A stretch of 54,855 nt of DNA from a virus. Shown piece after piece: positions 1,255-53,482 of this stretch (position 1 is the first letter of the stretch; each line of letters begins with the position of its first letter). The notes under the pieces were generated by a model. That model was not told where the DNA came from, did not search any database, and saw nothing but the letters and a program-made list of their open reading frames with translations. The position numbers were made by a program, and so were the translations under genes. The stretch is from the IMG/VR virus record IMGVR_UViG_3300002144_000245, positions 1 to 54,855 of that record; one strand, given 5' to 3'.

Positions 1255-2886
1255 TTATCCCAAAGTGTTCAAATGACCTACATATACTTTACCATAGAAT
1301 TCACCACGAACCATTTGTTTAGCGTAACGAGTCATTACACCTTTTCTTGGTTGGAAATTCTTAGGGTCGTATACAAGAGGAGTCATAATTAATGGAATAT
1401 ATGGAGCATAAACAGCACCAGTTTCCAAGAATTGAGAACCTTTGAAACCTAACAAGATAACATTTTCAGTCATGTAAGGATTCTTGTAAACTTGATAACG
1501 ATTAGCGAATGAACCTACTTGAGAAACACCCATAGCAAAATTCATTTCATTACCCGTACCAGAAGCAGCAAACCCTGGGATAGACTCAAGGATTGTAGCA
1601 ACGTCAGGAGAAACTACCATAAAGTTAGCTCCACCTCTCATGGTTTTAGCATGAATTTGGTTAGATACTCTCTGAAGAACAGTACCAATAGTTTGGAACC
1701 ATTGTTGTTGAGTGTAACGAGCAGCTGTTCCACCATCGGCGAAATTAGAACCACCCCATTCGTAACCTACTTTAGCAGACCAATGACCAACAGTCAAAGC
1801 GTTCTCCATCAACATATCTAAGATTTCGAGGTCGATTTCTTGAGAGATGTATTCAGATAACATTGAAGTCAATTCAGCTTCAGCATCGATTGAATGATAA
1901 GCGTTCAAATCTTGAGCAAATTCAGGAGTCCATTGTGCTTTCAACTTACGAGTCTTAGCAACGATTGGCACAGAGCGTAACTCTACGTTCAATTCAGGAA
2001 TACCTAAATCACTTTCAGGGTTAGCAGCGAAACCAGCACCAGTTTGTTCGAAGTCACCACGAGAGATGTCAGCTGGTTGTTTTTGGTATTTAACAACACA
2101 GTTTGCTACAGTAAAGGCATCACCGATAGAACCGGCAACTTCAACAACGAAACGTACATTAGTACCAACGATAGAAGTGTAAGCTGGGTAATATTGAACA
2201 ATACCTGAACCAGAGATATCAAAGGCTCTAACGCCTTCAGCGTCATAACCTGTCAATGAAGCAACAGCAACAGATACAGTACCAAGGTTAGTATCAGCAG
2301 TAGCAGCCGATGCAGAGAATGCAGCGTCGTATCCAATTACAGCAAGACCACTAGCAACGCCAGTAGCAACAGATGCAGATGCGTGGTTAGTTAATGTTGC
2401 AGTAGTTGCGTCATTCATAGAATAACCGAAACGACCAGCACCATAAAGACCTTCAGAAGCATTACCTGCAGTTTCGGTGATACCGAATACTGAGTCAGCT
2501 TGAGAGTTTTTACCAGCACCAGTTTCAAATCCTGGCTGAGCAGTACCATACTTGAAATCCAAGTAAAATACAAGGCCAGAAGGCAAGTTCATTGGTTGTA
2601 CAGAAACGAATTCTTTAGCAGCGATTTCGCTGAAGATACGTCTTACTAATGGAAGAGCGACACCAGACCACTCTTCAGAGTTTGCAGAAGTACCTGTGCT
2701 TGAAGCTTCAGATACTAATTGCTTTGCTTGGTTTTCCAACAAAGTAGCGATTGTACTTCTTTCGAAGTCGTTAGCGATACCTTCTAAAAGACCTGTCTTT
2801 TCCCACTTAGAGACTAATCCCTTAGATTCTTCAGACATCTTTTTGTTGAAACCAGCAGATTCATTTAATAAAGATTTTGTATTCAT
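1255..2886 (-). CDS. Major capsid protein (T4 gp23 family)
   Basis: 543 residues, close to the 521 of T4 gp23. Segments that match gp23 as I know it include FVSVQPMNLPSGLVF (93-107), KAQWTPEFAQDLNA (316-329) and YDPKNFQP near the C-terminus. The N-terminal prodomain (1-60) begins with MNTKSLLNE and contains LLEG and LLENQ, as in gp23; the likely maturation cut is LVSE60/A61, near T4's cut at 65/66. Residues about 120-290 form a Ser/Ala/Thr-rich stretch much longer than the equivalent core region and may be an inserted surface domain. AAGGA lies 9 nt before the start. It follows the scaffold gene by 31 nt and ends at a strong terminator. Confidence 0.97.
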   Translation of the reverse strand: MNTKSLLNESAGFNKKMSEESKGLVSKWEKTGLLEGIANDFERSTIATLLENQAKQLVSEASSTGTSANSEEWSGVALPLVRRIFSEIAAKEFVSVQPMNLPSGLVFYLDFKYGTAQPGFETGAGKNSQADSVFGITETAGNASEGLYGAGRFGYSMNDATTATLTNHASASVATGVASGLAVIGYDAAFSASAATADTNLGTVSVAVASLTGYDAEGVRAFDISGSGIVQYYPAYTSIVGTNVRFVVEVAGSIGDAFTVANCVVKYQKQPADISRGDFEQTGAGFAANPESDLGIPELNVELRSVPIVAKTRKLKAQWTPEFAQDLNAYHSIDAEAELTSMLSEYISQEIDLEILDMLMENALTVGHWSAKVGYEWGGSNFADGGTAARYTQQQWFQTIGTVLQRVSNQIHAKTMRGGANFMVVSPDVATILESIPGFAASGTGNEMNFAMGVSQVGSFANRYQVYKNPYMTENVILLGFKGSQFLETGAVYAPYIPLIMTPLVYDPKNFQPRKGVMTRYAKQMVRGEFYGKVYVGHLNTLG

Positions 2887-2917
2887 CTTATTATTTCCTT
2901 TTTAGGTTTTTAATTAT

Positions 2918-3898
2918 TTAAATTAGACCAGCTAACTTCTTAAATCTATTAGCAACTTCACTACCTTCAGAAAGAATTTCTCTCTTTGGTGCTGAAGACT
3001 TCATAGGCTTAGAAGCAAGTGATTCTTTAACAACTGTTTTTGGTTTACGAGCAACATTCAAGTTTTCACCTAATGTAGCGTAAACTAATTTTACTTCTCT
3101 TAATGAAGCAGTTCTATCGAAATTTTCGATAACCTTCATTTTTTGTGACTCATTCAAATCAAAAGTTCTGAATAACTTGTTAGTGTAAAGAAGTTTAGCG
3201 TTTAACAAGTTAACTTCGTTGATAGTTGTTCTTAAAGACTGAATAGTCTTGTAAGCTTCTTCCAACTGAGCAGCTGTTTCATCTTCTTCTTCGGTTTCTT
3301 CTTCAGTTACTTCTTCTTCGTCAGCCATTTCTTTTAAGGTACGGATGATTTCGTTGATGTCTAATTCTTCGTCAGAATCCATGTCTTCTTCGTCAATCGC
3401 TTCTTCAGCGTCTTCTTCGTAAGTCATTTCGTCTTCGTCTTCTTCAGTAACAACATCTTCTTCATCATCACCAAGAGCAGCTTCAAGTTCAGCAATTACG
3501 GATTCAAGGTCTAAGTCATCTTCTTCAGTTGACTCTTCTTCTTCACCAGTAACATCGTACTCTTCACCTTCTTCGTCAGAATCCATTTCCATGTATTCTT
3601 CTTCTGCCGTTTCACCAGCCTCATGCTCTTCAGAGCCTTCACCTTCTTCTTCAGTCACGTCATCTTCTGTACCATGCTCATCTTCAGACATTTCGTCTTC
3701 AGCAGTAGGTACTTCGATATCCATCTCATCTTCTTCCTCAAGTTCCTCGTCTTCGAGTTCTTCAGCAATCTTATGAGATAACATAGATTGAAGTTTTGGA
3801 GTGAATGCCTCTTCGAGAGCCATCTTAGCGTTTGCGAGTGCAGTTTCCTTTACGGCTTTAGCGTCAGCAATTGCTTCTTTTAACAAATCTGATTTCAT
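2918..3898 (-). CDS. Acidic prohead core scaffold protein (T4 gp22-like)
   Basis: 326 residues. The middle (about 45-210) is almost entirely Glu, Asp, Ser and Met, the N-terminus is a charged helix and the C-terminal third is helical and basic. Position directly before the capsid gene and this composition match gp22, the scaffold that fills the prohead and is destroyed by the prohead protease. A fitting cleavage site, EILSE/GSEV, lies 15 residues from the C-terminus; the tail ANRFKKLAGL resembles the C-terminal end of gp22-type scaffolds. AGGAG (3906-3910) stands 7 nt before the ATG. Assignment rests on position and composition more than on sequence motifs. Confidence 0.82.
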   Translation of the reverse strand: MKSDLLKEAIADAKAVKETALANAKMALEEAFTPKLQSMLSHKIAEELEDEELEEEDEMDIEVPTAEDEMSEDEHGTEDDVTEEEGEGSEEHEAGETAEEEYMEMDSDEEGEEYDVTGEEEESTEEDDLDLESVIAELEAALGDDEEDVVTEEDEDEMTYEEDAEEAIDEEDMDSDEELDINEIIRTLKEMADEEEVTEEETEEEDETAAQLEEAYKTIQSLRTTINEVNLLNAKLLYTNKLFRTFDLNESQKMKVIENFDRTASLREVKLVYATLGENLNVARKPKTVVKESLASKPMKSSAPKREILSEGSEVANRFKKLAGLI

Positions 3899-4052
3899 TT
3901 GTTTTCTCCTAAATTAATTTTTGGATAATAAGATTATTGGGAATCTTAATAGAATATAAATTTTTCTAATAATAGTAATCACTCATTAGAGGAGTGATAT
4001 TTTTCTCTAATAAATAGAGGTATTTTTTTTAAAACGATAAAGTGTTTACCAT
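3899..4052. other. Intergenic stretch between bS21 and scaffold genes
   Basis: An AT-rich 154-nt gap. It holds the scaffold ribosome-binding site and two short inverted repeats (ATCACTC/GAGTGAT around 3979-3999 and CTCTA/TAGAG around 4006-4020). On the minus strand neither repeat is followed by a T-run, so I do not call a terminator. It may carry the promoter for the scaffold and capsid genes; a weak AATTTATAT variant of the candidate late motif lies near 3955-3962. Confidence 0.4.
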
Positions 4053-4349
4053 TTATTCTTCTCGGCGTCTACGAACCCATTCAGTTCGTATTGCTTGGTT
4101 TTTGGCTTCTCTTCGTTTCGTAGTTGGTTTTATATATTCTTTTCTGTCACGAAGTTCATCCATGATACCACTATCCTTTACAATTCGCTTCCATGCGCGA
4201 AGTGCTGATTCAAGGTTACCATTGATAACTTTAACTCCCATCGCATGTCCATAAAGATATGGTTCTTGTCTTGGGGGTCTTTTCTTTTTGTCGTCTCTAC
4301 GATTTTGAGTGTCGTCTCTACGATTTTGATTTTGGTCGTTGTCTTGCAT
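4053..4349 (-). CDS. rpsU: Ribosomal protein bS21, phage-encoded
   Basis: 98 residues. Residues 37-98 are a complete bS21: GVKVINGNLESALRAWKR, then GIMDELRDRKEYIKPT and a basic C-terminal helix ending WVRRRREE. bS21 sits on the 30S platform next to the anti-Shine-Dalgarno end of 16S rRNA and affects start-site choice. The first 36 residues are an unusual extension with two QNRRDD units encoded by a 21-bp tandem repeat. No Shine-Dalgarno sequence precedes the start, in contrast to its neighbours; ATATTTATA lies upstream at 4402-4410. A gene for bS21 among terminase, portal, protease and capsid genes matches, from memory, published Bacteroidetes phages in which it is expressed late. Confidence 0.93.
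   Translation of the reverse strand: MQDNDQNQNRRDDTQNRRDDKKKRPPRQEPYLYGHAMGVKVINGNLESALRAWKRIVKDSGIMDELRDRKEYIKPTTKRREAKNQAIRTEWVRRRREE
4290..4329 (-). repeat. 21-bp tandem repeat in the bS21 N-terminal extension
   Basis: A 19-nt unit (starting GTCGTCTCTACG on the plus strand) occurs at 4290-4308 and 4311-4329, giving a 21-bp period. It encodes two copies of QNRRDD plus one residue, so the extension grew by in-frame duplication. Confidence 0.85.
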
Positions 4350-4429
4350 ATACTTGTTTTATATATAAAAAAATACACCTACCAAACTAATGATAGATGT
4401 ATATAAATATTGAAAAATTGTTTATAAAG

Positions 4430-4792
4430 TTATTTTACAGTTAATATATTTGCTTCAGTAACTACTGATTCATACACACCCTCTGATAAATCATCTAATC
4501 CGTTTTTGAAATCACCAAGTAATTTACCAAATTGCTTTTGCTTATCAGTTGGTAGTCTTTTAATCTTAGGTATATTCTTTTTGATGAACATAGAAAAGTC
4601 TGCACTTATTTCTTGCATTCTATCCACGTCACCCGTGCCTTCGGACACAGAGTCTGCACTATCAATGTCATCATCAGATGAATCATCGGCCATAGTCTCG
4701 GCCATAGTTTGTTTCATCTTAATCAATTTAGAAGATGGTAATTCCCCACCACCTAAAAATGTTTCGTTAAGTAAGCTTTTTAGATTTATCAT
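4430..4792 (-). CDS. Small acidic head-core protein with capsid-targeting-like ends
   Basis: 120 residues of no family I recognise. The first ten residues, MINLKSLLNE, followed by Thr, resemble the N-terminal leaders of the neighbouring 330-residue protein and the capsid protein, and the C-terminus carries YESVVTE/ANILTVK, a second site of the putative protease type. The middle is very acidic (DDSSDDDIDSADS) and the rest helical and basic. The gene overlaps the upstream gene by 4 nt (ATGA), so the two are translationally coupled. Position between protease and scaffold suggests a minor prohead core protein comparable in role to T4 gp67/gp68 or internal proteins; this is inference. Confidence 0.55.
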   Translation of the reverse strand: MINLKSLLNETFLGGGELPSSKLIKMKQTMAETMADDSSDDDIDSADSVSEGTGDVDRMQEISADFSMFIKKNIPKIKRLPTDKQKQFGKLLGDFKNGLDDLSEGVYESVVTEANILTVK

Positions 4793-5781
4793 TTTATTTT
4801 TCCCTTTGCGATATCTCGTTGAAGTTGGTCAGCTGCATTTTGTACATCTACGACAGCTTGGTTGATTGGTACATTACGATATTTACCAAGTTTTTTAACT
4901 GCCATAAGTACGATTCTTAATTCTTCTGATGATGGACTTTCATTAATAACTGCCTCACCAAACATCTCATCATCAAAATAAAGAGCACTCATGTAATCTT
5001 TTAGTTTTGCGTTTTTAAAATCACCTTTAAACTTTTCTAATGCTCTACGAGCTTTTAAAGCCGATTTAGCTGGAACAACAAAGAATCCATTCTTTTCACC
5101 ACCCTTTTTCGTTTGTGCTGAAACTACCTGAGCCTTCATTCCAGTTCCAGCAGAATTACCTTTTGGGTCAATTAAAGTCCACTTATCACCTTCGTTTAAA
5201 ATGTTGGTTAGTTTCATTGAGGTTTTTTCAGTAACTACTGATTCTTTAGCGAAGTCTTTTGCGTTCTCTTTGTCTTCTTTATCAACGGATGTTACTTTGT
5301 ACTCTTTACCATCAACGTCAAATGAATCATCGCCAGCAGCGATAGCTTTAGCTCTATTAGCTCCAAACTCGTTACCTTCTTTGATTTCGTAATATTTACC
5401 AAGAACTTCACCAATTTCATCATAAGTTGACTCTAATCGTTGTTGAAGAGTGTTTACTTCTTTGATTGTATTAGAGAATATTTTGAATGACTCATTCATA
5501 GACTTCATGTGTCTACCAACAGTTACTTTATCAAACCAATCGCCGGTTTCTTTAATGGTAACTTTATTAGCGTTCTCTACGATACCTTTAATAGATTCGT
5601 GGATTTCGGACAAATTACCTTTATGAGAAATCATCTCACCAAATTGTCTATAAGCAGAAACTGCTTCAACAAACGCTCTTTTTTCTTCGTTTGTCATTCC
5701 TTTTTCTTTCTCTTCACCAACATTCATTCGTCTATAATCTAAATGTTGAGATTCGTTAAGTAGGTCTTTTAGTTTTTTCAT
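4789..5781 (-). CDS. Modular prohead core / internal head protein with protease-type linkers
   Basis: 330 residues. It begins MKKLKDLLNE/S, a ten-residue leader like the T4 capsid-targeting sequence, and has further sites of the same kind at SVVTE185/K, NILNE197/G and AVINE281/S. Modules between them: a coiled-coil-like helical region (about 11-130); GNEFGANRAKAIAAGDD (137-152), part of a small unit also present in the protein at 13862-15166; a Lys-rich domain (198-281); and a helical C-terminus. GGAG stands about 7 nt before the ATG, which overlaps the stop of the protease gene by 4 nt. I infer that it is packaged in the prohead and cut by the neighbouring protease. Confidence 0.6.
   Translation of the reverse strand: MKKLKDLLNESQHLDYRRMNVGEEKEKGMTNEEKRAFVEAVSAYRQFGEMISHKGNLSEIHESIKGIVENANKVTIKETGDWFDKVTVGRHMKSMNESFKIFSNTIKEVNTLQQRLESTYDEIGEVLGKYYEIKEGNEFGANRAKAIAAGDDSFDVDGKEYKVTSVDKEDKENAKDFAKESVVTEKTSMKLTNILNEGDKWTLIDPKGNSAGTGMKAQVVSAQTKKGGEKNGFFVVPAKSALKARRALEKFKGDFKNAKLKDYMSALYFDDEMFGEAVINESPSSEELRIVLMAVKKLGKYRNVPINQAVVDVQNAADQLQRDIAKGKIK
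5213..5244 (-). repeat. Direct repeat copy A (linker-coding, 32 bp)
   Basis: A 32-bp sequence beginning TTCATTGAGG and ending CTACTGATTC (plus strand) recurs without mismatch at 13884-13915 in another gene. It encodes ESVVTEKTSM, a putative cleavage linker followed by the start of a leader-like segment. Confidence 0.85.
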
Positions 5782-6422
5782 AGTTTTACTCCAAAGTCAC
5801 ATTCACAATATCCACCAACTTCACACATGATATCTCTCATAAGTGTATTAGCTTTTTTGTATTTATAAGTATTTGATTTTTTGGTAACACCTTCTTTGAT
5901 GATACCTTCATTTTTTGGAGATAGGAAAGCGCCTTGAGTTGATGGGTTTGATACAAAATCCCAACAGATTAAATCAAAATCACTTTCTACGGCAACTGTT
6001 TCTTCTCCTATTTGTTTAACCGAGCCCATACCTCTTGATGATATACCAACAGTACACCCAGCTTTAATAATTTCTTGTAAGATTGTACCGGCCGGCGTAT
6101 TTAAAATTTCAACTGTACCAATAACATCATCACCCTTCCATTCAACAGAACGAACGATGTGAGATGTATTCTTTAATTCTACAATTGCTGATTCAGGATG
6201 GTCAAGTTCACCGTATGCACGATTTTCTTTAATCTCCCTACCTATATATTTCTTAACTTCTCGTTCAAGAATATTACGAGGGTACACTCTACCATTTTGG
6301 TTTTTAGCATCGGCTCTTTGTAGTACACCACTAACTAAAAATCGACCATGCTTTTCAGCTGACTCTTTTAACATAGTGGGTGTTACGTTGAACACTATAG
6401 TATCTACGAGTAATTGTTTCAT
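5778..6422 (-). CDS. Prohead maturation protease (T4 gp21 family)
   Basis: 214 residues from the ATG chosen here. The longer reading frame opens 12 nt earlier with TTG, but that stretch contains GGAGAA, the ribosome-binding site for this ATG. The herpes assemblin-like serine protease fold is indicated by HGRFLVSGVLQRAD (25-38), GELDHPES (71-78, catalytic His75), VGISSRGMG (125-133, nucleophile Ser128 or Ser129) and FDLICWDFVSNP (149-160). The enzyme digests the scaffold and trims capsid proteins after the head assembles, cutting after Glu. The stop of the upstream 46-codon gene overlaps the start (TAATG), and the next gene overlaps its stop by 4 nt. Confidence 0.93.
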   Translation of the reverse strand: MKQLLVDTIVFNVTPTMLKESAEKHGRFLVSGVLQRADAKNQNGRVYPRNILEREVKKYIGREIKENRAYGELDHPESAIVELKNTSHIVRSVEWKGDDVIGTVEILNTPAGTILQEIIKAGCTVGISSRGMGSVKQIGEETVAVESDFDLICWDFVSNPSTQGAFLSPKNEGIIKEGVTKKSNTYKYKKANTLMRDIMCEVGGYCECDFGVKL

Positions 6423-6562
6423 TAATTCTCCCAAACTTTCTTTTTACGATATAAGTCAAAGAAGACTCTAGCTAATTCTCTACGAATCAACATACGAATT
6501 TCCTCAAGGTCTTTGACATCGAGTTCTTCGTTAATTTGTTTCTTATTACAACCACATCCCAT
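6422..6562 (-). CDS. 46-residue conserved-position head-region protein
   Basis: A short gene that fills the gap before the protease gene exactly: its ATG is 1 nt after the stop of the upstream gene and its TAA shares one base with the protease ATG. The product begins MGCGCNKKQINEEL, so it has two close cysteines, and continues as a strongly charged helix (EEIRMLIRRELARVFFDLY) ending in a basic tail. AGGT lies just before the start. I do not recognise a family. Size and place recall the small core proteins found between portal and protease in T4-like phages, but no sequence evidence ties it to them. Its reality rests on perfect packing and clean codon use. Confidence 0.6.
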   Translation of the reverse strand: MGCGCNKKQINEELDVKDLEEIRMLIRRELARVFFDLYRKKKVWEN

Positions 6563-7071: not shown

Positions 7072-7908
7072 TTATAACCCCGTTACTTCGTCAAGTAGTT
7101 CATGGTATCTTAGAATTGAAAGAACCTGAGATTCACTTATTATTTTTGATTTGGCAATGTTATCCATAAGATTTACAGTTTCTTTTAATTTGATTTGAGA
7201 AACTATATCAGTTAATTTAATTTTAGAAAACTCACCTTTTAATCTTTTAACTTCAGTTACAATAAATTTTCGTAGATTTTCTGAATTATCTACATTATTA
7301 ATGTAAGTACGAAGAACTTTCTTTTGAGATTCCGATAAGTTAGTGTATTTTGAGTTGAATGAATCTACTAAAAACTTATAAGCTAACATACGAATCTCTT
7401 TTGGTAGAGCTGCGTAATCCTTATCAACTGACTCTGTTATAACTTTAACATCAGCCTTTGTAATAGTTTCTAAAATTACATTCTTACATTCAACATACTC
7501 TTTTGGGGATACACTTTGTGTGTTTTCAAATAACTTAAACACGGAAGCCATCTCACGGTAATTAGAAACACGGTATTTAAAGAAGTCTTCCATAACAAAT
7601 GATTCTTTGATTGATTTAATCAAATTATATTTTTGTCTGCGAAGAATTGCTTCATTTAAATTAACTCGTTCTTGTAGAATGATGTTAACAAACTCCTGAG
7701 CCTTATATTGTGAATCAAAGTTTTCTTTGGTAAGTGCTTGATACATTTTCAATTCTTTAGAAAGTTCAGTACCTTTCTTAAAATGATTTTTAATTACCTC
7801 AAGGGCAAGGGAATCTTTACCCGCTAATGTATCTGAAGCGATTCGCCTTACGAGTAGCTCGAAAAGTATACCCGTATTCTTAAATTTACTATGTTTAAGT
7901 TTAGTCAT
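7072..7908 (-). CDS. Conserved phage head-region protein, function unknown
   Basis: 278 residues, mostly helical, without membrane segments. The opening KLKHSKFKNTGILFELLVRR is a strongly conserved-looking motif that I associate with T4-like phages of aquatic bacteria, always near the portal gene, but with no assigned function. The rest has many Lys and Glu and two ESV/ESQ phrases that are not clear cleavage sites. ATATTTATA, the candidate late promoter motif, lies 27 nt upstream (7936-7944), and AAGG is near the start. It may be a portal-associated or core assembly factor; this is only from position. Confidence 0.65.
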   Translation of the reverse strand: MTKLKHSKFKNTGILFELLVRRIASDTLAGKDSLALEVIKNHFKKGTELSKELKMYQALTKENFDSQYKAQEFVNIILQERVNLNEAILRRQKYNLIKSIKESFVMEDFFKYRVSNYREMASVFKLFENTQSVSPKEYVECKNVILETITKADVKVITESVDKDYAALPKEIRMLAYKFLVDSFNSKYTNLSESQKKVLRTYINNVDNSENLRKFIVTEVKRLKGEFSKIKLTDIVSQIKLKETVNLMDNIAKSKIISESQVLSILRYHELLDEVTGL

Positions 7909-7946
7909 CGTAAACCTTCTATTATTATTCTACTTTATAAATATAC

Positions 7947-9818
7947 TTAAATTATGTCATCCAATAGATTTGTTTCATCTAACATCCCAACTTCTTTCGT
8001 TTCAACATCTTTTAAAGACTCAGTAATGATACTTGAATTTTTTAATTTTCTCTTTTTCAAAGATGTTTTTAAAGTTTTGATTGACTCATACGCTATTGAT
8101 GAACCTTTATACTTGTGGTAGGTAGAGTCGGTTCCTACATCAGTTTTTCTTCCTAATGGGTCTCTACCCATAGCAGCTTTGTCGGTTCCATAGGTACCAC
8201 CTTCTTCAGGTCTACCGGCGCCATCAAATCCACCTTCAGGAGAACCGCCCTCATCGGTTGGGGCTCCCTCATCTTCACCACCCTCTAAATTAAGTGCAGC
8301 TAAGTCATGCGGGGTTCCAAAAGATTCTCCTGTTTTAACAGGGTCGTTACCTTCAGATGCGATTTGTTCTTGTCTGAATCCAAGTTTTAAGTCATTAATA
8401 ACTTTAGCTTGTTCCATTCGCCACTCATCATCCGACATATTAAAGATGTGTTTATACATCCATTCTTGAGAAACCATTTTGAGCTCTTTCATGTCAGAAA
8501 CTAATGATACTTTTTCAGACCATAGTGCGGCTTTCTCTTGTTCGTATATAATAGATGGATTGGTAAGTTCTAATTCAAAGTTTACTAAGTCTGCGTTCTC
8601 ATACCCTTGTGAATACAAATGAACGATAGCAATTTTGTGAAGTTCTGAAAGAACAATACGTTGAATTCGTTCGACAGTTCTTGCAAAACGAATATCTTGT
8701 TGTGCAAGTGTAGCTTTACCTTCAACACCCTCTTCATACCCAATGAATGCCTTTGGAACTTTAAGAGCCGCCATCATTCTATTCTTTAGGTATTCGATAT
8801 CCTCGATACCACCAAACTCCATACCATTTAGGGTATCAATTTCGGTTCCACTCTGACCACCTCTAACTGGTAAGTAGTAATCTTCCAACATATTCATCAA
8901 GTTAAACTTGAGGTTGTAGTCTCCCGTGTCTTGGTTAAGGTAAGGGACTTTCTTCATTTGGTCAATAATACTTCTCATATGATTATCAACCTCAGCAGGT
9001 GGAATGTTACCTACATCAATTTTAAATACTCGTTTTTCAGGCGCCCGCATGATTCGGTGAATCATCATAGCATCTTCCATTAGAGTTAATTGTTTCCATG
9101 TCTTACGAGCACCTTCCAACAAAGAACGACCATATGGTAGGAAGTTTGTGTCAGCCATTAAACGGAAATGTGCTACTTGGTAGAATTCAAAATAATAACT
9201 GTTTGTTTTTGTATTACCAGTAAATGGTGAATTCATTGAGTTTAATTTAAATCTAACCTCATATGGATTTTCGTCGTTAAATCCCTCTTCACGTTCAACT
9301 TCATACGCTGACATTGGTGATACGTTTACGATTCCAATCCCATCTTCAATATCAAGATGAAGATAGTAGTCACCATATTTGTTCATACCACGAATCCATG
9401 ACCAAAGGTTAAATTCGATATTTAAAACATCATAAAATAAATTATGAAGAATTTTTTTGACATTTTCATCTGAAGATTTGATTCGAATGATGTCGCCCAT
9501 ATCATTCTTTAAAGTACACTCATCTGAATAGATGTCTAATATAGAAGCAATGATGGAATCTTTGTCCATAGCTTCATAGTCCGTGTATAATTCTAATTTG
9601 TTTGAATGATAGTTGAATTGGTTATTATATGTTTCCCAATTTCTACGAGAGGTGTGCATTCTACCAAATCTATCATAGTAAGATGTGCCGCGAATGTTAC
9701 CATCCGACTGAAGCCGTTGTGTATCAACTGCCGCTGTTCTTCCTTTACCAATGCGTCTTACGACTACTTGGGTAGCGAATAGTTTTTTAAGCCTACTAAA
9801 TAACGTTGTGTCTGCCAT
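7947..9818 (-). CDS. Portal protein (T4 gp20 family)
   Basis: 623 residues, somewhat longer than T4 gp20 (524). RAPEKRVFKIDVGNIPP (258-274) is the characteristic gp20 signature, preceded by LLEGARKTWKQLTLMEDAM in the stem region. The portal is the dodecameric ring through which DNA enters and leaves the head and which nucleates prohead assembly. The extra length is C-terminal: a Gly/Glu/Asp-rich linker at about 495-550 followed by a basic tail with SIITESLKDVE. It follows the terminase gene by 65 nt, and a TTTG-N20-TATATTTA promoter lies in this gap. The ribosome site is weak (AGAGAAAT). Confidence 0.95.
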   Translation of the reverse strand: MADTTLFSRLKKLFATQVVVRRIGKGRTAAVDTQRLQSDGNIRGTSYYDRFGRMHTSRRNWETYNNQFNYHSNKLELYTDYEAMDKDSIIASILDIYSDECTLKNDMGDIIRIKSSDENVKKILHNLFYDVLNIEFNLWSWIRGMNKYGDYYLHLDIEDGIGIVNVSPMSAYEVEREEGFNDENPYEVRFKLNSMNSPFTGNTKTNSYYFEFYQVAHFRLMADTNFLPYGRSLLEGARKTWKQLTLMEDAMMIHRIMRAPEKRVFKIDVGNIPPAEVDNHMRSIIDQMKKVPYLNQDTGDYNLKFNLMNMLEDYYLPVRGGQSGTEIDTLNGMEFGGIEDIEYLKNRMMAALKVPKAFIGYEEGVEGKATLAQQDIRFARTVERIQRIVLSELHKIAIVHLYSQGYENADLVNFELELTNPSIIYEQEKAALWSEKVSLVSDMKELKMVSQEWMYKHIFNMSDDEWRMEQAKVINDLKLGFRQEQIASEGNDPVKTGESFGTPHDLAALNLEGGEDEGAPTDEGGSPEGGFDGAGRPEEGGTYGTDKAAMGRDPLGRKTDVGTDSTYHKYKGSSIAYESIKTLKTSLKKRKLKNSSIITESLKDVETKEVGMLDETNLLDDII

Positions 9819-9851
9819 ATTATTTCTCTAAGTGTATACCTTTGTAAAGTA

Positions 9852-9883
9852 TAAATATACAAAAAATATTTTAATCTACCAAA
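9852..9883 (-). promoter_or_regulatory. Host-type promoter before the portal gene
   Basis: TTTG (9880-9883), 20 nt, then TATATTTA (9852-9859) on the minus strand, matching the Bacteroidota primary sigma consensus TTTG-N19-21-TAnnTTTG except for the last base. The same bases also contain ATATTTATA, the candidate late motif, so the two classes cannot be separated here. Confidence 0.5.
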
Positions 9884-11458
9884 TTAAAGTAACCATGTTA
9901 AATCTACGTCGTTTCCATGACCATCTCGTTGGGACCATGGGTTGTCTCCAAGAGTTCTATTATTATATACACCAGCACCTGCTTTTGTAATATTAGTCAA
10001 GGTGGTTCTGCTTAAATCAATACCCTGCTGTCTTAATTTTAATGCAGTATCACGTACCCACAACCCAGTTGAGAATGACATAACTAAGTCATCATTATAA
10101 CCTCGCTGTGCTTCCGCTCTACTACCATTCCATATGAAGACAAACAGTTCCTCTATAAGTCGCTTAGAATGGATGATAGGGGTACGTTCTCTCATGTAAG
10201 TATCTAATTTAGAGACTACTAAGGGTCGAGTTCTACTTGTCATTGAGAATCCAGGAACCATATCTTCTTTTCGTTTCAAATCAAAACCTTTGCGTAGGTG
10301 GATATCTTCATCGATATAACCAGCATCTCTATATGAGTAATATAAGTTTTGATAATTTCTATCAATTACTTCTTGTATTACAGCCCAACCAATATTTGCG
10401 TTTTCAATTACCAACATTGCGTTGTTCCACTCAGATGCGATTGATGTAAGCATAGCTCCAAATTGTTTGGTTTCTATCTTACCTTTATATTCCGCAACCT
10501 GTTCTACGGATTCAATATCAATTACATGAAACGCTGAGTAGTCGGTTGAATCTCCACGAGCAACGTCTGCTACAACAACATAATCACGTGAGTAGTTTGG
10601 GTAGTCCCATAACCAATAGTTACCATCAAATCCCCTCTTTTCCAATGGGTCTTTGACATAAGTCTCTTCGTACCATTGTAATGTAGCACCTTCAACTACA
10701 CTATAACCAGATGAAATAAAATCACAATCACATTCTTGTGCTGCTCCTTTATCACCTAACAATGTTGATTGTTCTTCACGCCATAGTTGGTTTCTATCAG
10801 GATGAACCGACCAATGTAATTCAATAGGATTCCATGTATCACCACTCATTGCCTGAACCCATACCTTATGGAACCAGTTACCTACACCATTTGGAGTAGA
10901 AAGTACAATAGCCCCACCACCTGTTGATAACGTGGATTGTGCAGATGTCCATATACTTTCAATATTATCAATGAAAGCGGCCTCGTCTATAATCAACATT
11001 GAAAGTGCTTCAGAACGACCAGCATCACCAGCGGCTGAAGTTGCTTTGATTTGAGACCCATTTTTTAATCGGAGAGATAATTTATTATCCTCTTCAGTTT
11101 GTCCCCTCAACCACGTTGGTAAGTTTTGATGCATGAAACGAACCTTTGTTACAAGATTCTTTGCTACCTCTTGTTTGGTAGCGATTACCAAAACATTCTT
11201 ATCTTCATGAAATAACATCAACCAAAGTGAATATCCAGCTGAAAGTGTTGAGATACCTAATTGACGAGATTTGAGAATAACATTAAATCTATGCTTCTCA
11301 ACCTCATACATTAAATTTTCTTGGAAGTCGTATAAGTTAAAAAGTATTTTACCACGAGATGGGTGTTGAATATAACAATACTTCTTAAAAAAATATACTG
11401 GGTCTTTAGCACATTTAACGTACTCTTCTTTGATTAACTCTTTTAGAGATTTTGCCAT
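9884..11458 (-). CDS. Terminase large subunit (T4 gp17 family)
   Basis: 524 residues, near the usual 550-610. The ATPase half has the Walker A variant SRQLGIST (64-71), Walker B MLIIDEA (154-160) and the coupling motif VLSTPNG (185-191). The C-terminal RNase H-like nuclease is marked by VVVADVARGDSTDYSAF with its metal-binding Asp residues, MLVIENANIGWAV and NDDLVMSFSTGLWV. The enzyme cuts concatemeric DNA and pumps it through the portal. No clear Shine-Dalgarno sequence precedes the ATG. I found no small-terminase gene in the window. Confidence 0.97.
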   Translation of the reverse strand: MAKSLKELIKEEYVKCAKDPVYFFKKYCYIQHPSRGKILFNLYDFQENLMYEVEKHRFNVILKSRQLGISTLSAGYSLWLMLFHEDKNVLVIATKQEVAKNLVTKVRFMHQNLPTWLRGQTEEDNKLSLRLKNGSQIKATSAAGDAGRSEALSMLIIDEAAFIDNIESIWTSAQSTLSTGGGAIVLSTPNGVGNWFHKVWVQAMSGDTWNPIELHWSVHPDRNQLWREEQSTLLGDKGAAQECDCDFISSGYSVVEGATLQWYEETYVKDPLEKRGFDGNYWLWDYPNYSRDYVVVADVARGDSTDYSAFHVIDIESVEQVAEYKGKIETKQFGAMLTSIASEWNNAMLVIENANIGWAVIQEVIDRNYQNLYYSYRDAGYIDEDIHLRKGFDLKRKEDMVPGFSMTSRTRPLVVSKLDTYMRERTPIIHSKRLIEELFVFIWNGSRAEAQRGYNDDLVMSFSTGLWVRDTALKLRQQGIDLSRTTLTNITKAGAGVYNNRTLGDNPWSQRDGHGNDVDLTWLL

Positions 11459-26100: not shown

Positions 26101-26298
26101 TGTTTTTGCGTGAACAATATCACCAGCTACTACAATGATGTCATTTTCCGACATTGTGGATAGAATGTACCCATAAAGTTGGGAAAATACATCACGGTAT
26201 TCTGAGTGTCGTTTTAGGTTTCTTATATGTACATCGGCTATATGATAAATTTTTCCAATCTTATCAATACCAATGTTAATCTTTTTCACATTTTTCAT
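23128..26298 (-). CDS. Fused Mre11-Rad50 type recombination nuclease (T4 gp47 + gp46)
   Basis: 1056 residues combining what are normally two proteins. Residues 1-345 are an Mre11/SbcD phosphoesterase: HIADVH (19-24), VVAGDIVH (56-63), IPGNHD (92-97), LFHGP (164-168) and LLGDIH (197-202). From about 375 follows a Rad50/SbcC ATPase: Walker A APNASGKST (410-418), coiled coils flanking a zinc hook CNHC (728-731), the signature LTSGMEKF (965-972) and Walker B FIAIDEG (993-999). In T4 the gp46/gp47 complex resects DNA ends for recombination-dependent replication and helps degrade host DNA. The fusion fixes 1:1 stoichiometry. The start overlaps the primase gene by 4 nt and lacks a Shine-Dalgarno sequence. 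Confidence 0.95.
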   Translation of the reverse strand: MKNVKKINIGIDKIGKIYHIADVHIRNLKRHSEYRDVFSQLYGYILSTMSENDIIVVAGDIVHAKTDMSPEVVNLTQEFFSRLSDLLPTIVIPGNHDANLSNPSRMDALQPIVNALRLPKLHYIRDSGSWHIANCIFTHQSVFDDSPGFPSPLDVALCDHKIALFHGPVDKIITDHGFVIENKKINVSNFDGYDLVLLGDIHKPNNAVLGNSNIMYPGSLIMQNHAESLYPDHGILVWDMETLTSKFVTIPNEFGYVTVDIEDGKVVSNSHIPNRPRMRVRVKNTKTSELNKLIAELKKGRKIEELTIQKVITRKDGGEHGKITLQNVRDVAFQNKLIEDLLMETDHLTENQLEVVKSINADINAKLGSQRVITNSIWIPKTFEFSNMFSYGPNNIIDFTNMKGAYGIFAPNASGKSTLWDALSFCIFDKCSRTSKAEDVLNYSKMSYDCKFIFELNGVDYVIERAARKSPKRGTVKVDTNFYRIIDGVVESLNGEQRRDTNSLIREYVGTYDDFVLTAMSTQSNNSGFIDKSQKERKELLAQFLDMDVFEGLYQIASEEIRELSALLKDYKNQDLPTQLAEAEEVLTSTDGSLIKYQNKKSKLETNRDVVNTKIEFDMGNLKPVEDIRDLQTIQLELESLQKIRDIQSTDCNFNLAEVKKIETLQLDIQSKLDKIDINSLREKEIQYKLYDTEFNEMGTQLDKLESEIIHAKEHLDGIGSLTFDDKCNHCIENKNTPFAKQADTLEKKIKSLGSDYSKVVTKRLEILDIRSKCDVTTELKLWNDHSDELLKLDKEWVRLNKLYDSCIALVKDYDSEIKELERTLQKAKDQEQAVAHNKVIIEKIKSFKVTRSQLDDSIKEVTDELMNVNSEIKLAEKTIEMVNQSINKLREMETKFDGYEYYLKCVKRDGIPYNLISDVLPKLEIEINNILQPIVDFEILLNTDGKNINSYIAYGDTEFWPLELTSGMEKFISSIAIRTALINVSNLPRPNFIAIDEGFGSLDTDNFNSLYLLFDYLKTQFDFIITISHIDKTRDMVDQIIDINKVRGFSKVSYI

Positions 26299-27230
26299 AC
26301 ACGAAATAGTTGGTACTCCATTAACTTACGTAAATCGAGTGGGGGTGTACCATATATTTTTTCATTAATTTTTTTATACCCCAATTCCGATGGGTCATCA
26401 TCACCTAAATCTACAAGGTGAGTTTGAATTCCATACGACATAAACTTCTTTGCTAACCCCAATGCATTCTTCAACGCGTCGGAATCTAAACAAATATACA
26501 ACTTTTTTACTGAATTTCCTATTATTTTCTTTTCTAACTCAGATTGGATTGATTTTCCAAACAATGGTATTGCGTTTCGCCTAATCGCGATAGCATCAAA
26601 TACACCTTCACATAGTATAATAGGGGTGTCCCAATTAACTAATAAATCAAAACCTATAATATCTTTAGATACTTTTGGATTCTTATGTTTATATTGTGTC
26701 TGATAGAATGACCTACCTACGAAGAAGTTTAACTTACCTCGTTCATCATATGATGGGATTATAACTTTATCACGATACTCACCCTCCTCACAATACCCAA
26801 TATTATATTTTACAATATCCTCAACCCTAAATCCTCTATTTAACAAATAGTGTAAAGCGTGTTTCCTTTTAGTTGAATTGGAGCTCTCATAGAGTGGGTG
26901 AAACTCCTTTGGAAGTTGAACCTGTTCTACAACGTCAGATACATCATACTCACTTGAGTATCGGTTTAACTTGTTAAAGATGGAATTATAATCATCCCAG
27001 CTTTGTTTAGATACTCGTAGTTTTTTAAAGAGTGACTTAATGGTTTTACCACGTTCATCCGAAATCCAACAATGCCATGGGTTGTCTGCTTTAGAATTAA
27101 TTCGTATATTAATTTCTAATTTTGGTTTGTAATGGTCAACGAATGGTGAATAAAACGCATAATTATCACCCGATGTTTTCTTAGATTTACCAAGAACGGA
27201 CTCTAATAATTCAAGTAGTCTTTCTTCCAT
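26295..27230 (-). CDS. DNA primase (T4 gp61-like, Toprim)
   Basis: 311 residues. The Toprim catalytic core is shown by ILCEGVFDAIAI (205-216, catalytic Glu208) and YICLDSDA (245-252, metal-binding DxD). Upstream, YLLNRGFRVEDIVKYNIGYC and VIIPSYDERGKLNFFVGRSF are typical of DnaG/gp61 catalytic domains. The N-terminal 100 residues have PWHCWISDERG where a zinc finger would lie, but a full set of four ligands is not evident. It makes RNA primers for lagging-strand synthesis with a helicase not present in this window. It overlaps the recombination nuclease gene by 4 nt and is preceded by a TTTG-N19-TATATTAG promoter. Confidence 0.88.
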   Translation of the reverse strand: MEERLLELLESVLGKSKKTSGDNYAFYSPFVDHYKPKLEINIRINSKADNPWHCWISDERGKTIKSLFKKLRVSKQSWDDYNSIFNKLNRYSSEYDVSDVVEQVQLPKEFHPLYESSNSTKRKHALHYLLNRGFRVEDIVKYNIGYCEEGEYRDKVIIPSYDERGKLNFFVGRSFYQTQYKHKNPKVSKDIIGFDLLVNWDTPIILCEGVFDAIAIRRNAIPLFGKSIQSELEKKIIGNSVKKLYICLDSDALKNALGLAKKFMSYGIQTHLVDLGDDDPSELGYKKINEKIYGTPPLDLRKLMEYQLFRV

Positions 27231-27235
27231 AACTA

Positions 27236-27266
27236 CTAATATACAACATTATTTTGAATAATCAAA
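27236..27266 (-). promoter_or_regulatory. Host-type promoter before the primase gene
   Basis: TTTG (27263-27266), 19 nt, TATATTAG (27236-27243) on the minus strand, one base off the Bacteroidota TAnnTTTG consensus. It overlaps the end of the endonuclease I gene and gives a very short leader for the primase and Mre11-Rad50 genes. Confidence 0.45.
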
Positions 27267-39160: not shown

Positions 39161-41074
39161 TTAAAATAATGATACTACTCTACCTCTGATATCAGTATCA
39201 GGATATTTTACTTCAAAAATAGTTGGGTCTTTTGGTGGGTATACGATACCATCACGAGTTGCGCCAACAATATTATATTTATTTGATGAATAGTTACCAC
39301 TATGCTTGTTTATAATATGTAACCCACCTTCACCATTTGAATCAGGACGAACTACACTTTGAACGCCAGCTACACCATCTAACATAATATAAATATCCGT
39401 TAATGTAATAGGTCGGTTGATTTGCATTCTATCATTCTTGAAGTACTCTTTTAATACGTTAATACATTTTAAAAGAACCTCATTTGAGTTATAGTTTGGA
39501 AGTACGATGATTTCAAAATCAACTCCAATGTTAACAATGTATGCATTTTTTATATTTACAGCATCTGTTAAAACTCGATAGTATGACAAATAATTTTGTA
39601 GATTTTGTTTTGTAGCATTGTTTAGATTTTGGAACTTACCATCACTATCATAGCCTGCAACATAGAAATTAATAGCCAATTGGTTTGGAGTGGCATCAAT
39701 ACCATCATCTAATAAAGTTTTGATTTGCCAATCTGGAGCAGCATATGCTTTAGCAACCGAACCAAATTGTGGTGGAAGTGCGTATGCTCTTAGTAAGTAA
39801 TCTTCTTTAGTTACTGCTCTATTTTGTGCTCTGAAGTAAGCCATTGCATTGTTGCGAACCTCGTCAATTTCCTCTTCATATTTAGCGCCACCAGCAGCTG
39901 TTTCATTTGTTACAGCAATTGAATTTACTACAACATTATACACACTGGTTACTAAATTTAAAGAAGGATTCTCTATAACTCGTTCAACTATAGTTGTTAA
40001 ATCTTGTGATGTTACATTATCAATAACACCATTACCAACACGATACGTAACAGTCAATGTGGTGTTAGATGGTGCGACTCCATATGTTTTTGAATACATA
40101 AAGTTTGATGGGTCGATACCTTGGTCAAGGTCAGCTCTATTTCCATATAAAGCGTCACCAACATTTGTTGGGTTTGGTAGAATTTCTTCATCAGAGTTCT
40201 GAGATATCCCAGCCCCAAACTGAATATCGATTTTACCTTCATCAGAAACTCGTGTTATAAATCTCTTTGGAACTCTTTTTAGTTTTAGTAATGATGGGGT
40301 CTCATTTGCATATGCCGCCATTGCTAAAGAGTAGTCAGTTGTATTTGGTAATTCCTCAAACACAGTATCTTGTGCAAGGTAATCTACTTTAGTCCAGACA
40401 TCACCATCGTCATCTGTAATTGAAATAACATCAATCAACCCATCAACATCTTCCAATCGAATCTTGTCATATGGCTTTGGTGTTGTAAATGTGAATGTTT
40501 GTGTTTTTTGTTTACCACTAACAGCTTTAACTTGCTTTTTTAGTAAGTAATATACAGGCTCATTTGTATCTGGGTCTATTTCATATACACTAATATCAGT
40601 TGGGTCAAATGATGATGAATATGCGAATCTTACTTTATTGATTGTTGAGAACTCAACATTGGTATTTGATACAGCACTTGCAATCATACCTTCTTTTATG
40701 GTGAGCGCATAATCCCAATTAGGACTAACGTCGTCGCCAAATCCCTTTGATGGTATGATTTGGTACATCGTTAAGTTTGTTGTAGCGGGAACAAATAATT
40801 TCGGTTTGTATCCAAGCGATTGTGCGATTGTAAATACATTTGACTTCTCTTGTGCTTGCTCAAGAATTGATTCTCTTAATTGAACATCTGTATAATAGGA
40901 AAGTACATCACCTACATACGATGCCATTTCCATAAACATCATCCCCGGAGATGATTCGTTAAAATCATTGAAGGTTTGTGGAAAATAGTTTTTTGTAAAA
41001 TCAATAAGATTTTGGCGGATATCCCCAAAATCCTTCCCTATTAGATTTACATTTTTTTTAACTTTGTCTGCCAT
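39161..41074 (-). CDS. Baseplate wedge protein (T4 gp6 / baseplate J family)
   Basis: 637 residues, near T4 gp6 (660). The start NLIDFTKNYFPQTFNDFN followed by SSPGMMFMEMASYVGDVLSY is the typical gp6 N-terminal signature. Further on, NAMAYFRAQNRAVTKEDY and the C-terminal INRPITLTDIYIMLDGVAGV belong to the J-like core. gp6 dimers form the inner ring of the baseplate together with gp25 and gp53, and change angle when the tail contracts. AAGGG stands 6 nt before the ATG; the gp25-like gene lies 9 nt upstream. Confidence 0.92.
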   Translation of the reverse strand: MADKVKKNVNLIGKDFGDIRQNLIDFTKNYFPQTFNDFNESSPGMMFMEMASYVGDVLSYYTDVQLRESILEQAQEKSNVFTIAQSLGYKPKLFVPATTNLTMYQIIPSKGFGDDVSPNWDYALTIKEGMIASAVSNTNVEFSTINKVRFAYSSSFDPTDISVYEIDPDTNEPVYYLLKKQVKAVSGKQKTQTFTFTTPKPYDKIRLEDVDGLIDVISITDDDGDVWTKVDYLAQDTVFEELPNTTDYSLAMAAYANETPSLLKLKRVPKRFITRVSDEGKIDIQFGAGISQNSDEEILPNPTNVGDALYGNRADLDQGIDPSNFMYSKTYGVAPSNTTLTVTYRVGNGVIDNVTSQDLTTIVERVIENPSLNLVTSVYNVVVNSIAVTNETAAGGAKYEEEIDEVRNNAMAYFRAQNRAVTKEDYLLRAYALPPQFGSVAKAYAAPDWQIKTLLDDGIDATPNQLAINFYVAGYDSDGKFQNLNNATKQNLQNYLSYYRVLTDAVNIKNAYIVNIGVDFEIIVLPNYNSNEVLLKCINVLKEYFKNDRMQINRPITLTDIYIMLDGVAGVQSVVRPDSNGEGGLHIINKHSGNYSSNKYNIVGATRDGIVYPPKDPTIFEVKYPDTDIRGRVVSLF

Positions 41075-41083
41075 TATTATCCC

Positions 41084-41518
41084 TTATACGATAGATACGT
41101 TTCCTTGTTCGGTTATCTTAATAACTATAGGAGTGTTTGCACCATTCTCCGTAACCTGAACAGATAATGTTATATTGATTCTATTATAGTCATCTTCTTG
41201 GTTAACTGTCAGTTCATTGATAATGATATATGGTAACCAAAACCTAATATCATTTGTTAAAGTTTCTTTTAATTTGTTAGATGTACCAAGGTCCATTTGT
41301 TCAAATAATAAAGAATATATATCCGTACCAAATAAAGGTTGAAATGGTCGTTCTCCCTTTCTTGTCAATAGTAGATTTTTTAAATTTGAAATAGCTTGCT
41401 CTTCTGTTGTATATGATAATTTAAACATTGGAGAACCACCCAATGGTAACATAACACCAATTGCTACATTTCTTTTAAGGTCTAACGGATGTATTTTATA
41501 TTCTTTTCTTTGAGCCAT
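41084..41518 (-). CDS. Baseplate wedge protein (T4 gp25 / GPW family)
   Basis: 144 residues, the usual length. LLLTRKGERPFQPLFGTDI (48-66) is the hallmark of gp25/GPW 'lysozyme-like' wedge proteins; KLKETLTNDIRFWLPYIIIN follows as expected. Despite the old name, these proteins are structural: gp25 connects wedge to sheath and starts sheath assembly. The TAA of the upstream gene overlaps the ATG (TAATG) and AAGG lies 6 nt before it. Confidence 0.93.
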   Translation of the reverse strand: MAQRKEYKIHPLDLKRNVAIGVMLPLGGSPMFKLSYTTEEQAISNLKNLLLTRKGERPFQPLFGTDIYSLLFEQMDLGTSNKLKETLTNDIRFWLPYIIINELTVNQEDDYNRINITLSVQVTENGANTPIVIKITEQGNVSIV

Positions 41519-51823: not shown

Positions 51824-53107
51824 TTAAAATGGATTAGAAATATCATCAGCCTCAATATTGAATAGGTTTTCATCAGCAGGTCGGTCACCTAAAAACTTCT
51901 GAATATATTGTTTCATATAAACTCGTTCTGATTGAGCACCACCACTTTGGTCAAACAATGGATAAATAGTAATCTCAGCAGCGTCAGCGAGTGAGAATCC
52001 ATCGTAAAGAAGAGACCCAATCTCGACAGCAGTACGAGTTGAAAGTGAGTTGGTTAACTTAGGTGAGTCTGACATAACATCTGCACGAGTCATAGAAGTA
52101 ATCTCACCAACAGCTTTTAGTTGAGTCTCATCCACAGATGGGTACATCATTTGAAGTAAAGAGAATTCCTCTTCACTTGTCAACGTATCCATCTCAATGA
52201 ATTGGAATCGGTCAATGATAGCCCGGTCAAGTTGACGAGTGGCTGTGTATTCATTACCGATGTTAGCCGAAGCAATGAAAGAAACACCATCGGCGACCTT
52301 GATAACAGGAGCATCAGCAGCCTCATCTAATCGTAGGTATCGTTGACCTTGGTCAAGAACTGACATCAGTATATTGTGAGCTTCAGGGTGAGCCCGTGAA
52401 ATCTCATCAAGAACAATTACAGTATTAGGAGTCTGAATAGCCTTCACAAATGGTGAGGGATTAAACACCGTACCCTTTTGAGCTTCAAACTGAGTATTAC
52501 CAATTAAGGTACTTCGTGGGTCTTGAGTAGCACCCAAGTTAATGATAAATGTACTATAACCCTCAAGTGAGTTAGCAGCGGCCTTAGCAGCCATAGTCTT
52601 ACCACAACCAGCAGGTCCGGTCATCATAATGTTCTTACCACGAAGAATGTTACGAATTAAATACTTCCATTTTAAAGTATTCATGAACAACATTTTAGGT
52701 TTTAAACCTTCAGACGTTTCGTGGATAAAATTTAAGACATCTTCAGTCATTACAGGAGCAGCAACAGCCGTTGGAATATTAGGTTCATATTTTAAAGCAG
52801 CAAGGCCACCATTTGGTGATGTGAAGTTACCAACTGATTCAGGGTTTTCTTCAACTTTACTAATTGGAACACGAGTGAACCCAAGTTCACCATTTGTTAA
52901 AGTTCCTAAAACACGAACTTTAAATCCATACTTATCAGGTCGTTTTGCCGACTGACGAACCCGACCATGGAGAGGGGTACCCACCTCGTTAAATTGTGGG
53001 ATATTAAACTTGACACCCGCGGCATCTTCAAACAGGTAAAGACCATCGTTCTCGACAATCTTTCCGTAAACTGATTTTTGTGACTTCATACGATTATTAT
53101 TTCTCAT
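51824..53107 (-). CDS. MoxR/CobS-like AAA+ ATPase
   Basis: 427 residues. AAA+ core from about 140: Walker A GPAGCGKT (164-171), Walker B VIVLDEI (230-236), a sensor in FIASANIGNEYTATRQLD and an arginine-finger segment RAIIDRFQFIEMD. The N-terminal 110 residues are a separate beta-rich domain. MoxR-type ATPases work with VWA-domain proteins as chaperones or metal-chelatase motors; the VWA partner is encoded just upstream. From position it belongs to the early or middle genes. Start without Shine-Dalgarno sequence, promoter 15-46 nt upstream. Confidence 0.9.
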   Translation of the reverse strand: MRNNNRMKSQKSVYGKIVENDGLYLFEDAAGVKFNIPQFNEVGTPLHGRVRQSAKRPDKYGFKVRVLGTLTNGELGFTRVPISKVEENPESVGNFTSPNGGLAALKYEPNIPTAVAAPVMTEDVLNFIHETSEGLKPKMLFMNTLKWKYLIRNILRGKNIMMTGPAGCGKTMAAKAAANSLEGYSTFIINLGATQDPRSTLIGNTQFEAQKGTVFNPSPFVKAIQTPNTVIVLDEISRAHPEAHNILMSVLDQGQRYLRLDEAADAPVIKVADGVSFIASANIGNEYTATRQLDRAIIDRFQFIEMDTLTSEEEFSLLQMMYPSVDETQLKAVGEITSMTRADVMSDSPKLTNSLSTRTAVEIGSLLYDGFSLADAAEITIYPLFDQSGGAQSERVYMKQYIQKFLGDRPADENLFNIEADDISNPF

Positions 53108-53121
53108 TAATTATTACTATG

Positions 53122-53179
53122 TAAAGATAGTGATTTAGGTACACAACTCCAAATTTCTAATGTTATCAAATTGTTAAAT
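53122..53179 (-). promoter_or_regulatory. Extended host-type promoter before the AAA+ gene
   Basis: TTTG (53150-53153), 20 nt, TATCTTTA (53122-53129). A 21-bp element beginning ATTTAACAATTTG (53159-53179) ends 5 nt before TTTG. The same element, spacing and boxes occur at 53425-53482. Confidence 0.6.
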
Positions 53180-53364
53180 TATTTACGAACATACGAACCT
53201 CCATACTCATACAACATCCCCATTGTAGGATGAACGACAGTATTACCCTTAACAACTAACTCTTGAAGCTTCACTCCCAAACTAGCCATTTTTAAACCTG
53301 TGATAAATAACTTACTACCTAACACTTTTGAATTTACTTGATTAACTTTAATTTTATTTTTCAT
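53179..53364 (-). CDS. Small basic protein of unknown function
   Basis: 61 residues, basic, alpha/beta (VLGSKLFITGLKMASLGVKL, VVHPTMGMLYEYGGSYV). No family recognised. It sits between the VWA and AAA+ genes with a promoter of its own and a hairpin in its leader. Confidence 0.45.
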   Translation of the reverse strand: MKNKIKVNQVNSKVLGSKLFITGLKMASLGVKLQELVVKGNTVVHPTMGMLYEYGGSYVRK

Positions 53365-53392
53365 TTCTTAATTATTTACTTTTTGTTTTATT

Positions 53393-53409
53393 GGAGTGTC
53401 AGTCACTCC
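53393..53409 (-). other. Hairpin in the leader of the 61-residue gene
   Basis: GGAGTG / CACTCC, a 6-bp stem with a 5-nt loop, 29 nt upstream of the start codon. No T-run follows on the minus strand, so it is more likely a stabilising or regulatory leader structure than a terminator. Confidence 0.4.
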
Positions 53410-53424
53410 CCCTTTACTACATAG

Positions 53425-53482
53425 TAAAGATAACACTAAAAGATTGATTACACAAACTTTCAATGTTATCAAATTGTTAAAT
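53425..53482 (-). promoter_or_regulatory. Extended host-type promoter before the 61-residue gene
   Basis: TTTG (53453-53456), 20 nt, TATCTTTA (53425-53432), with the 21-bp element ATTTAACAATTTG... (53462-53482) 5 nt upstream of TTTG. The element overlaps the stop codon of the VWA gene. Confidence 0.6.

Follow-up and report, generated by a model that had tools for sequence, protein, structure and literature searches.

The window analysed here (54,855 nucleotides, positions 1 to 54,855 of IMG/VR virus record IMGVR_UViG_3300002144_000245) carries a real bS21 gene, an ATG-started open reading frame (Table 1) whose product matches the Pfam family PF01165 (Ribosomal_S21) over residues 39-88 with 53.8 bits against a cut-off of 27 and also matches PHROG 21469 ('ribosomal protein S21'), bearing out the claim of an earlier sequence-only reading of this DNA that the bS21 core is complete. 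An AlphaFold model places helices at residues 46-60, 62-70 and 77-97 with block pLDDT values of 70-90 and assigns low confidence to residues 1-30 (mean pLDDT 50-61); these are the expected helices and a poorly predicted tail, and the model says nothing on mechanism. The gene sits in a T4-like head cluster, between the prohead-protease block and the scaffold-like and Gp23 capsid genes, and all of these, together with the portal and large terminase (TerL) genes, lie on one strand. The earlier comparison with the head-gene setting of lake phages held for the neighbours, given that in the Bacteroidetes phages of Chen et al. (2022, PMC9723584) bS21 likewise adjoins terminase, portal, protease and capsid genes; it did not hold for orientation, as the published genes run against the direction of the head genes, whereas the window gene lies on the same strand. 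The published proteins also have an aromatic residue at position 54, where the window protein has Arg.

Table 1. Positions of the bS21 gene, its parts and the genes whose leaders were compared in the window
Feature	Position	Strand	Basis
Phage bS21 gene, 98 aa	4053..4349	-	ORF; PF01165 53.8 bits; PHROG 21469
bS21 leader (tatttttttatatataaaacaagtat), no SD	4350..4375	-	
N-terminal extension, codons 1-36 (Asn/Gln/Arg/Asp, then KKKRPPRQEPYLYGHA)	4242..4349	-	alignment, conservation
21-bp perfect tandem duplication, 2.0 copies, inside the extension	4289..4329	-	TRF score 82
Arg88 codon, position of F. johnsoniae Tyr54	4086..4088	-	ungapped alignment with 7JIL sequence
Trp91 codon, aromatic three positions on; Trp or Tyr in R54 relatives	4077..4079	-	
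Gp23 major capsid gene with SD leader (taaaaaggaaataataag)	1255..2904	-	PF07068; leader scan
Acidic scaffold-like gene with SD leader (taatttaggagaaaacaa)	2918..3916	-	leader scan
Head-block gene, 330 aa, with SD leader (tgactttggagtaaaact)	4789..5799	-	
Prohead protease; SD (gaaagtttgggagaatta) ahead of ATG, inside a longer TTG-started ORF	5778..6434	-	PF03420
Head-block gene, 278 aa, with SD leader (aataatagaaggtttacg)	7072..7926	-	
Portal, SD-less leader	7947..9818	-	PHROG 213
Large terminase, SD-less leader	9884..11458	-	PF03237
Primase homologue without SD; short leader tgttgtatattagtagtt holds a Bacteroidota -7-like element	26295..27248	-	82% identical to G001 primase
Baseplate wedge gene with SD leader (atcgtataagggataata)	39161..41092	-	homologue of G001 baseplate wedge gene

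Alignment to unextended bS21 proteins sets the start of the core at residue 37, leaving the 36-residue N-terminal extension that had been described from the letters. That the extension is built from a 21-bp tandem repeat proved to be only partly right: a perfect repeat is present, but at 2.0 copies it covers 41 of the 108 bp, and nearly all relatives carry extensions of 15-22 residues without it, so we rejected the repeat as the extension's source. Initiation at an in-frame ATG at residue 37 might in theory give an unextended bS21; however, the corresponding position is not Met in relatives, in which the extension is nevertheless conserved, and codon changes within it number 55 synonymous to 49 nonsynonymous across 19 pairs of relatives. 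Together, these findings rule out a start-site artefact and indicate that the extension is translated. Across a large family of marine and freshwater T4-like phages it is both conserved and subject to purifying selection. The extension forms a basic tail rich in Arg and Lys and is attached at the bS21 N-terminal helix, which Chen et al. (2022, PMC9723584) place above the anti-SD.

Relatives were taken as bS21 loci from IMG/VR scans and sorted into a group A and clades B, C and Mel. Group A encodes unextended bS21, mostly with Tyr, His or Gln at position 54, and where head genes can be recognised the bS21 gene usually runs on the strand opposite to them (L174, L177, L183), L014 differing in having it on the head-gene strand. 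Clade B, consisting largely of lake phages, has extensions mostly of 14-17 residues that start MSKKQKQHQ, with Tyr or Phe54; clade C, to which the window belongs, has extensions of 15-34 residues, Arg54 and Trp or Tyr57, with the exception of L038 (Tyr54); and the Mel clade, which includes Microcystis phage Mel-JY01, has extensions of 10-13 residues and Lys or Gln54. Throughout clades B, C and Mel the gene lies between the protease and scaffold genes on the head-gene strand. Group A (G011, L174, L177, L183) resembles the lake phages of Chen et al. in its opposite strand and aromatic residue, and it has neither an extension nor SD-led virion genes, whereas the window's clade combines an extension, R54 and SD-led virion genes. 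By terminase and capsid identity the nearest cultured relatives are Mel-JY01 (59/57%) and Flavobacterium phage immuto (57/55%), the latter having no bS21 genome-wide. In the TerL tree all of the SD-using clades with extended bS21 form one group (support 95/94), with the immuto clade next to it; the co-occurrence of the extension with SD use therefore counts as a single evolutionary event. When bacterial genomes were searched for the closest cellular bS21, only two Clostridia MAG loci were obtained, which was uninformative.

With the first ATG used as the start codon throughout all genomes, Shine-Dalgarno (SD) tetramers were present in 48% of the window's ORF leaders compared to 17% of shuffled ones, and G was most frequent at -8 to -11. 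We observed SD enrichment likewise in G001, G004, G005 and G006 (clade C), in G010 (clade B) and in Mel-JY01; none was found in immuto, phi14:2, FCL-2 and phi38:1, which are Bacteroidota phages without bS21, in G011, whose bS21 is unextended, or in the parts of LR756508 covered. A permuted anti-SD energy test discriminated weakly (14 of 150 permutations paired as strongly), and composition-matched k-mers were used in its place. Across 265 virion leaders of extended-bS21 phages, the SD words GGAGA, AAGGA and AGGAG were present in 73, 56 and 48 leaders, while the rearranged control words GAGGA, GAGAG and AGAAG were present in 6, 2 and 5. Ahead of virion genes, CCUCC-complementary motifs around -8 to -12 were more frequent than composition predicts, which was not so ahead of replication genes.

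To define these classes, genes of G001 were named by PHROGs and their homologues then classed in every genome. Pooling five R54-clade genomes, we found SDs on 70 of 93 virion genes compared to 4 of 50 replication genes, a split whose p value of 1e-15 overstates the independence of the samples because loci within clades are related. The window contributes 12/16 virion against 0/3 replication genes, with corresponding counts of 20/22 and 1/16 in G001, 15/21 and 2/15 in G004, 9/13 and 1/12 in G005, and 14/21 and 0/4 in G006. The split is weaker in G010 of clade B (11/20 versus 3/13) and in Mel-JY01 (9/20 versus 1/10), and immuto has SDs on 2/17 virion and 0/8 replication genes. At the capsid gene an SD is present in all loci compared of the SD-using clades (11/11 in clade C, 14/14 in clade B, 11/11 in Mel) and in none of 18 immuto-like and 6 group A phages; the scaffold-like gene is SD-led in 14/14 clade-C homologues. 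Terminase and portal are SD-less inside this SD-rich block (window 7947-11458 and homologues; SDs on 0/16 portal and 3/17 terminase genes of clade C), so the SD marks many virion genes and not all late genes. The bS21 gene itself has no SD in 22/22 clade-B and 19/20 distinct clade-C-type leaders. The Mel clade (L344-L402) has an SD-led bS21 gene in 14/16 leaders, which recalls the SD-led host rpsU. Very short leaders that end in a TATATTAG/TATATTTG element beside the start codon are found at the primase (window 26295-27230 and its G001 and G004 homologues) and at several further genes without an SD.

In an ungapped alignment with the F. johnsoniae protein (7JIL chain z), Arg88 of the window bS21 falls opposite Tyr54, confirming the Arg-for-Tyr replacement given in the earlier reading; where the anti-SD-sequestering bS21 of Bacteroidia is characterised by Tyr54, the window protein has Arg. 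Chen et al. state that an aromatic residue is retained at this position in all of their phage bS21 proteins (PMC9723584), a rule to which clade C, with Arg54, is an exception. It had been proposed from this residue that the phage protein could leave the anti-SD free. The conclusion gains independent support from SDs on virion genes of this phage and its kin and from their absence on those of the bS21-less sister clade; the replacement, although real, does not account for the pattern. Lake clade B keeps Tyr or Phe54 yet uses SDs, and L038 (genome G009), a clade-C phage with Tyr54 (NDAKYLQWVKNQ) that provides a natural contrast for this residue, still has SD-led virion genes. Arg54 is therefore not required for SD use, and we rejected the Tyr54-to-Arg change as the switch. 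The Trp or Tyr three residues later in clade C, which in the window is Trp91, about one helical turn after Arg88, could substitute for the aromatic at 54. The feature common to all SD-using clades is the N-terminal extension.

Burial of the anti-SD in F. johnsoniae is due to bS21, bS18 and bS6, and a bS21 Y54A substitution or loss of the C-terminal region increases translation of SD reporters (PMC9976891). In Bacteroidota, host bS21 together with bS18 and bS6 keeps the 16S rRNA 3' tail in a platform pocket, such that SDs are ignored. We propose that phage bS21 would take the place of host bS21 in the 30S subunits. The extended protein would then free the 3' tail, or its basic N-terminal tail would steady SD-anti-SD pairing, and SD-carrying virion mRNAs would be initiated preferentially. 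On this proposal the bS21 and replication genes of clade C would be SD-less because unmodified host ribosomes must translate them. We give an even chance to the replacement of host bS21 with exposure of the anti-SD or steadied pairing in favour of SD-led virion mRNAs. That phage bS21 makes non-SD ribosomes read SDs, and so works as a translational switch from SD-less (replication and bS21) to SD-led virion genes, we put forward more tentatively, at somewhat less than even. An altered bS21, SD-led virion genes and SD-less bS21 and replication genes are what would be expected if the anti-SD were unmasked part-way through infection, and the presence of SDs on capsid and tail genes and not on replication genes suggests that bS21 switches the host ribosome towards virion production. 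Accessibility of the anti-SD in infected cells is in this way supported by the SD pattern. Extension and SD use are observed to co-occur; causation, ribosome entry, anti-SD unmasking and the exact host are inferred.

A host that already reads SDs, either a lineage of the Bacteroidota phylum with a free anti-SD or a member of another phylum, is a less probable alternative, in which the SDs would simply be a mark of virion genes with strong translation and the role of phage bS21 would be limited to keeping ribosomes replete late in infection. A faint split of the same kind in two cyanophages that have no bS21 (3/7 versus 1/6 and 2/5 versus 1/8) keeps this alternative alive, and the weak SD enrichment of Rhodothermus phage RM378 also favours it. 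T4 and Mosig, however, which infect SD-reading hosts, carry SDs on replication genes too (virion 5/5 and 4/5, replication 4/6 and 4/5; few genes), and the closest cultured relative infects Flavobacterium. The Bacteroidota promoter TTG-N17-23-TAnnTTTG, which also speaks against such a host, occurs 10 times in G004 (antisense 0, shuffled 0.5) and 23 times in Mel-JY01 (antisense 1, shuffled 0.9); it is strongly enriched in crAss001 and phi14:2 too, and does not exceed chance in T4, Mosig and the cyanophages P-HM1 and S-CRM01. The window has one full match, with no significant enrichment, and G001 and G005 show no full-promoter enrichment, which leaves room for an SD-reading host, the host being assigned from sequence signals; promoter absence is not evidence on the host, since immuto, a known Flavobacterium phage, also lacks enrichment. 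G001, G004, G005 and G006 show a sense-direction enrichment of TATATT(T/A)G elements, and the SD-less leaders of clades B and C have the A-enrichment at -12/-13 of known Bacteroidota phages, which was not seen in T4, Mosig and cyanophages and argues further against a host that already reads SDs. Collectively, the promoters, TATATT(T/A)G elements and A-rich SD-less leaders make a Bacteroidota host likely for the phage family, while for the window itself it is unproven; a non-Bacteroidota host, considered because of a Pelagibacter phage bS21 match and the Microcystis label of Mel-JY01, is disfavoured by promoters and leaders. Mel-JY01 (PP395634.1, loci L202-L211) has Microcystis elabens as its recorded host but carries 23 Bacteroidota-type promoters; the phage may in fact infect a Bacteroidota bacterium that accompanied the culture. 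Weighing against a bS21 switch are the single evolutionary event, the dispensability of Arg54, the SD-led bS21 gene of Mel, the weaker gene-class split in clade B and Mel-JY01, the faint split in cyanophages, the lack of significant promoter enrichment in the window, the SD-less terminase and portal genes and the weak outcome of the permuted anti-SD test.

Less probable still is that the basic tail helps displace host bS21 or tethers phage mRNA while the anti-SD stays buried, the SDs having evolved otherwise. The Arg/Lys-rich tail and the Tyr54 of clade B would fit, and the same proposal has been published for huge phages, where Al-Shayeb et al. (2020, PMC7162821) describe an rpS21 with an N-terminal extension rich in basic residues, like that of the window, and propose that it gives preferential initiation of phage mRNA. 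This explanation, however, predicts neither that virion genes carry SD-specific motifs at the proper spacing nor that bS21-less sister phages lack SDs; the text of that paper, as far as it was covered, links the extension neither to SD use in particular gene classes nor to masking of the anti-SD. An off-ribosome role, such as packaging in the head as a basic protein or a part in head assembly, is very improbable: the gene lies inside the head block, the protein is highly basic and packaging of phage bS21 has been suggested (PMC9723584), but the bS21 core is well conserved and HTVC008M phage bS21 enters E. coli ribosomes, as cited in PMC9976891.

Compared to known systems, the window protein shares a homologous core and KP motif with F. 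johnsoniae bS21 (7JIL; PMC9976891) and would be expected at the same 30S platform position; the host protein differs in having 64 residues and no extension, with Tyr54 stacking on A1534, and its gene has a strong SD for autoregulation (PMC9976891) where the window gene has none. Pelagibacter phages Mosig and HTVC008M are likewise T4-like phages with bS21. Unlike in the window, Mosig bS21 is unextended, belongs to a phage of an SD-reading host and is encoded outside the head block by a gene with a strong SD. Earlier publications have described phage bS21, extensions at its N-terminus and its late expression (PMC6375957, PMC7162821, PMC9723584). For the split of SDs by gene class we found no report in the literature searched. 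Of the ribosomal proteins, bS21 is to our knowledge the one that phages carry most frequently. The phage genome itself records a likely reason, namely two classes of mRNA initiation, one for unmodified ribosomes and one for ribosomes with an exposed anti-SD. If true, this would be a natural case of a virus using specialised ribosomes and a built-in translational switch driven by the exchange of one ribosomal protein, an idea testable with existing Flavobacterium johnsoniae reporters.

Several minor observations concern the same genomes. The 484-kb phage LR756508.1 has a capsid 55% identical to that of the window, and its bS21, near 169725-169877, combines an unextended N-terminus with a long C-terminal tail ending YYYKKQRG. 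Two adjacent Mom-like DNA-modification genes are present in G001 (L102:16054-17593), and at 51824-54832 the window carries adjoining genes for an AAA+ protein (dynein-related AAA_5) and a weakly matched VWA-domain protein, resembling a MoxR/CobST-type chelatase pair.
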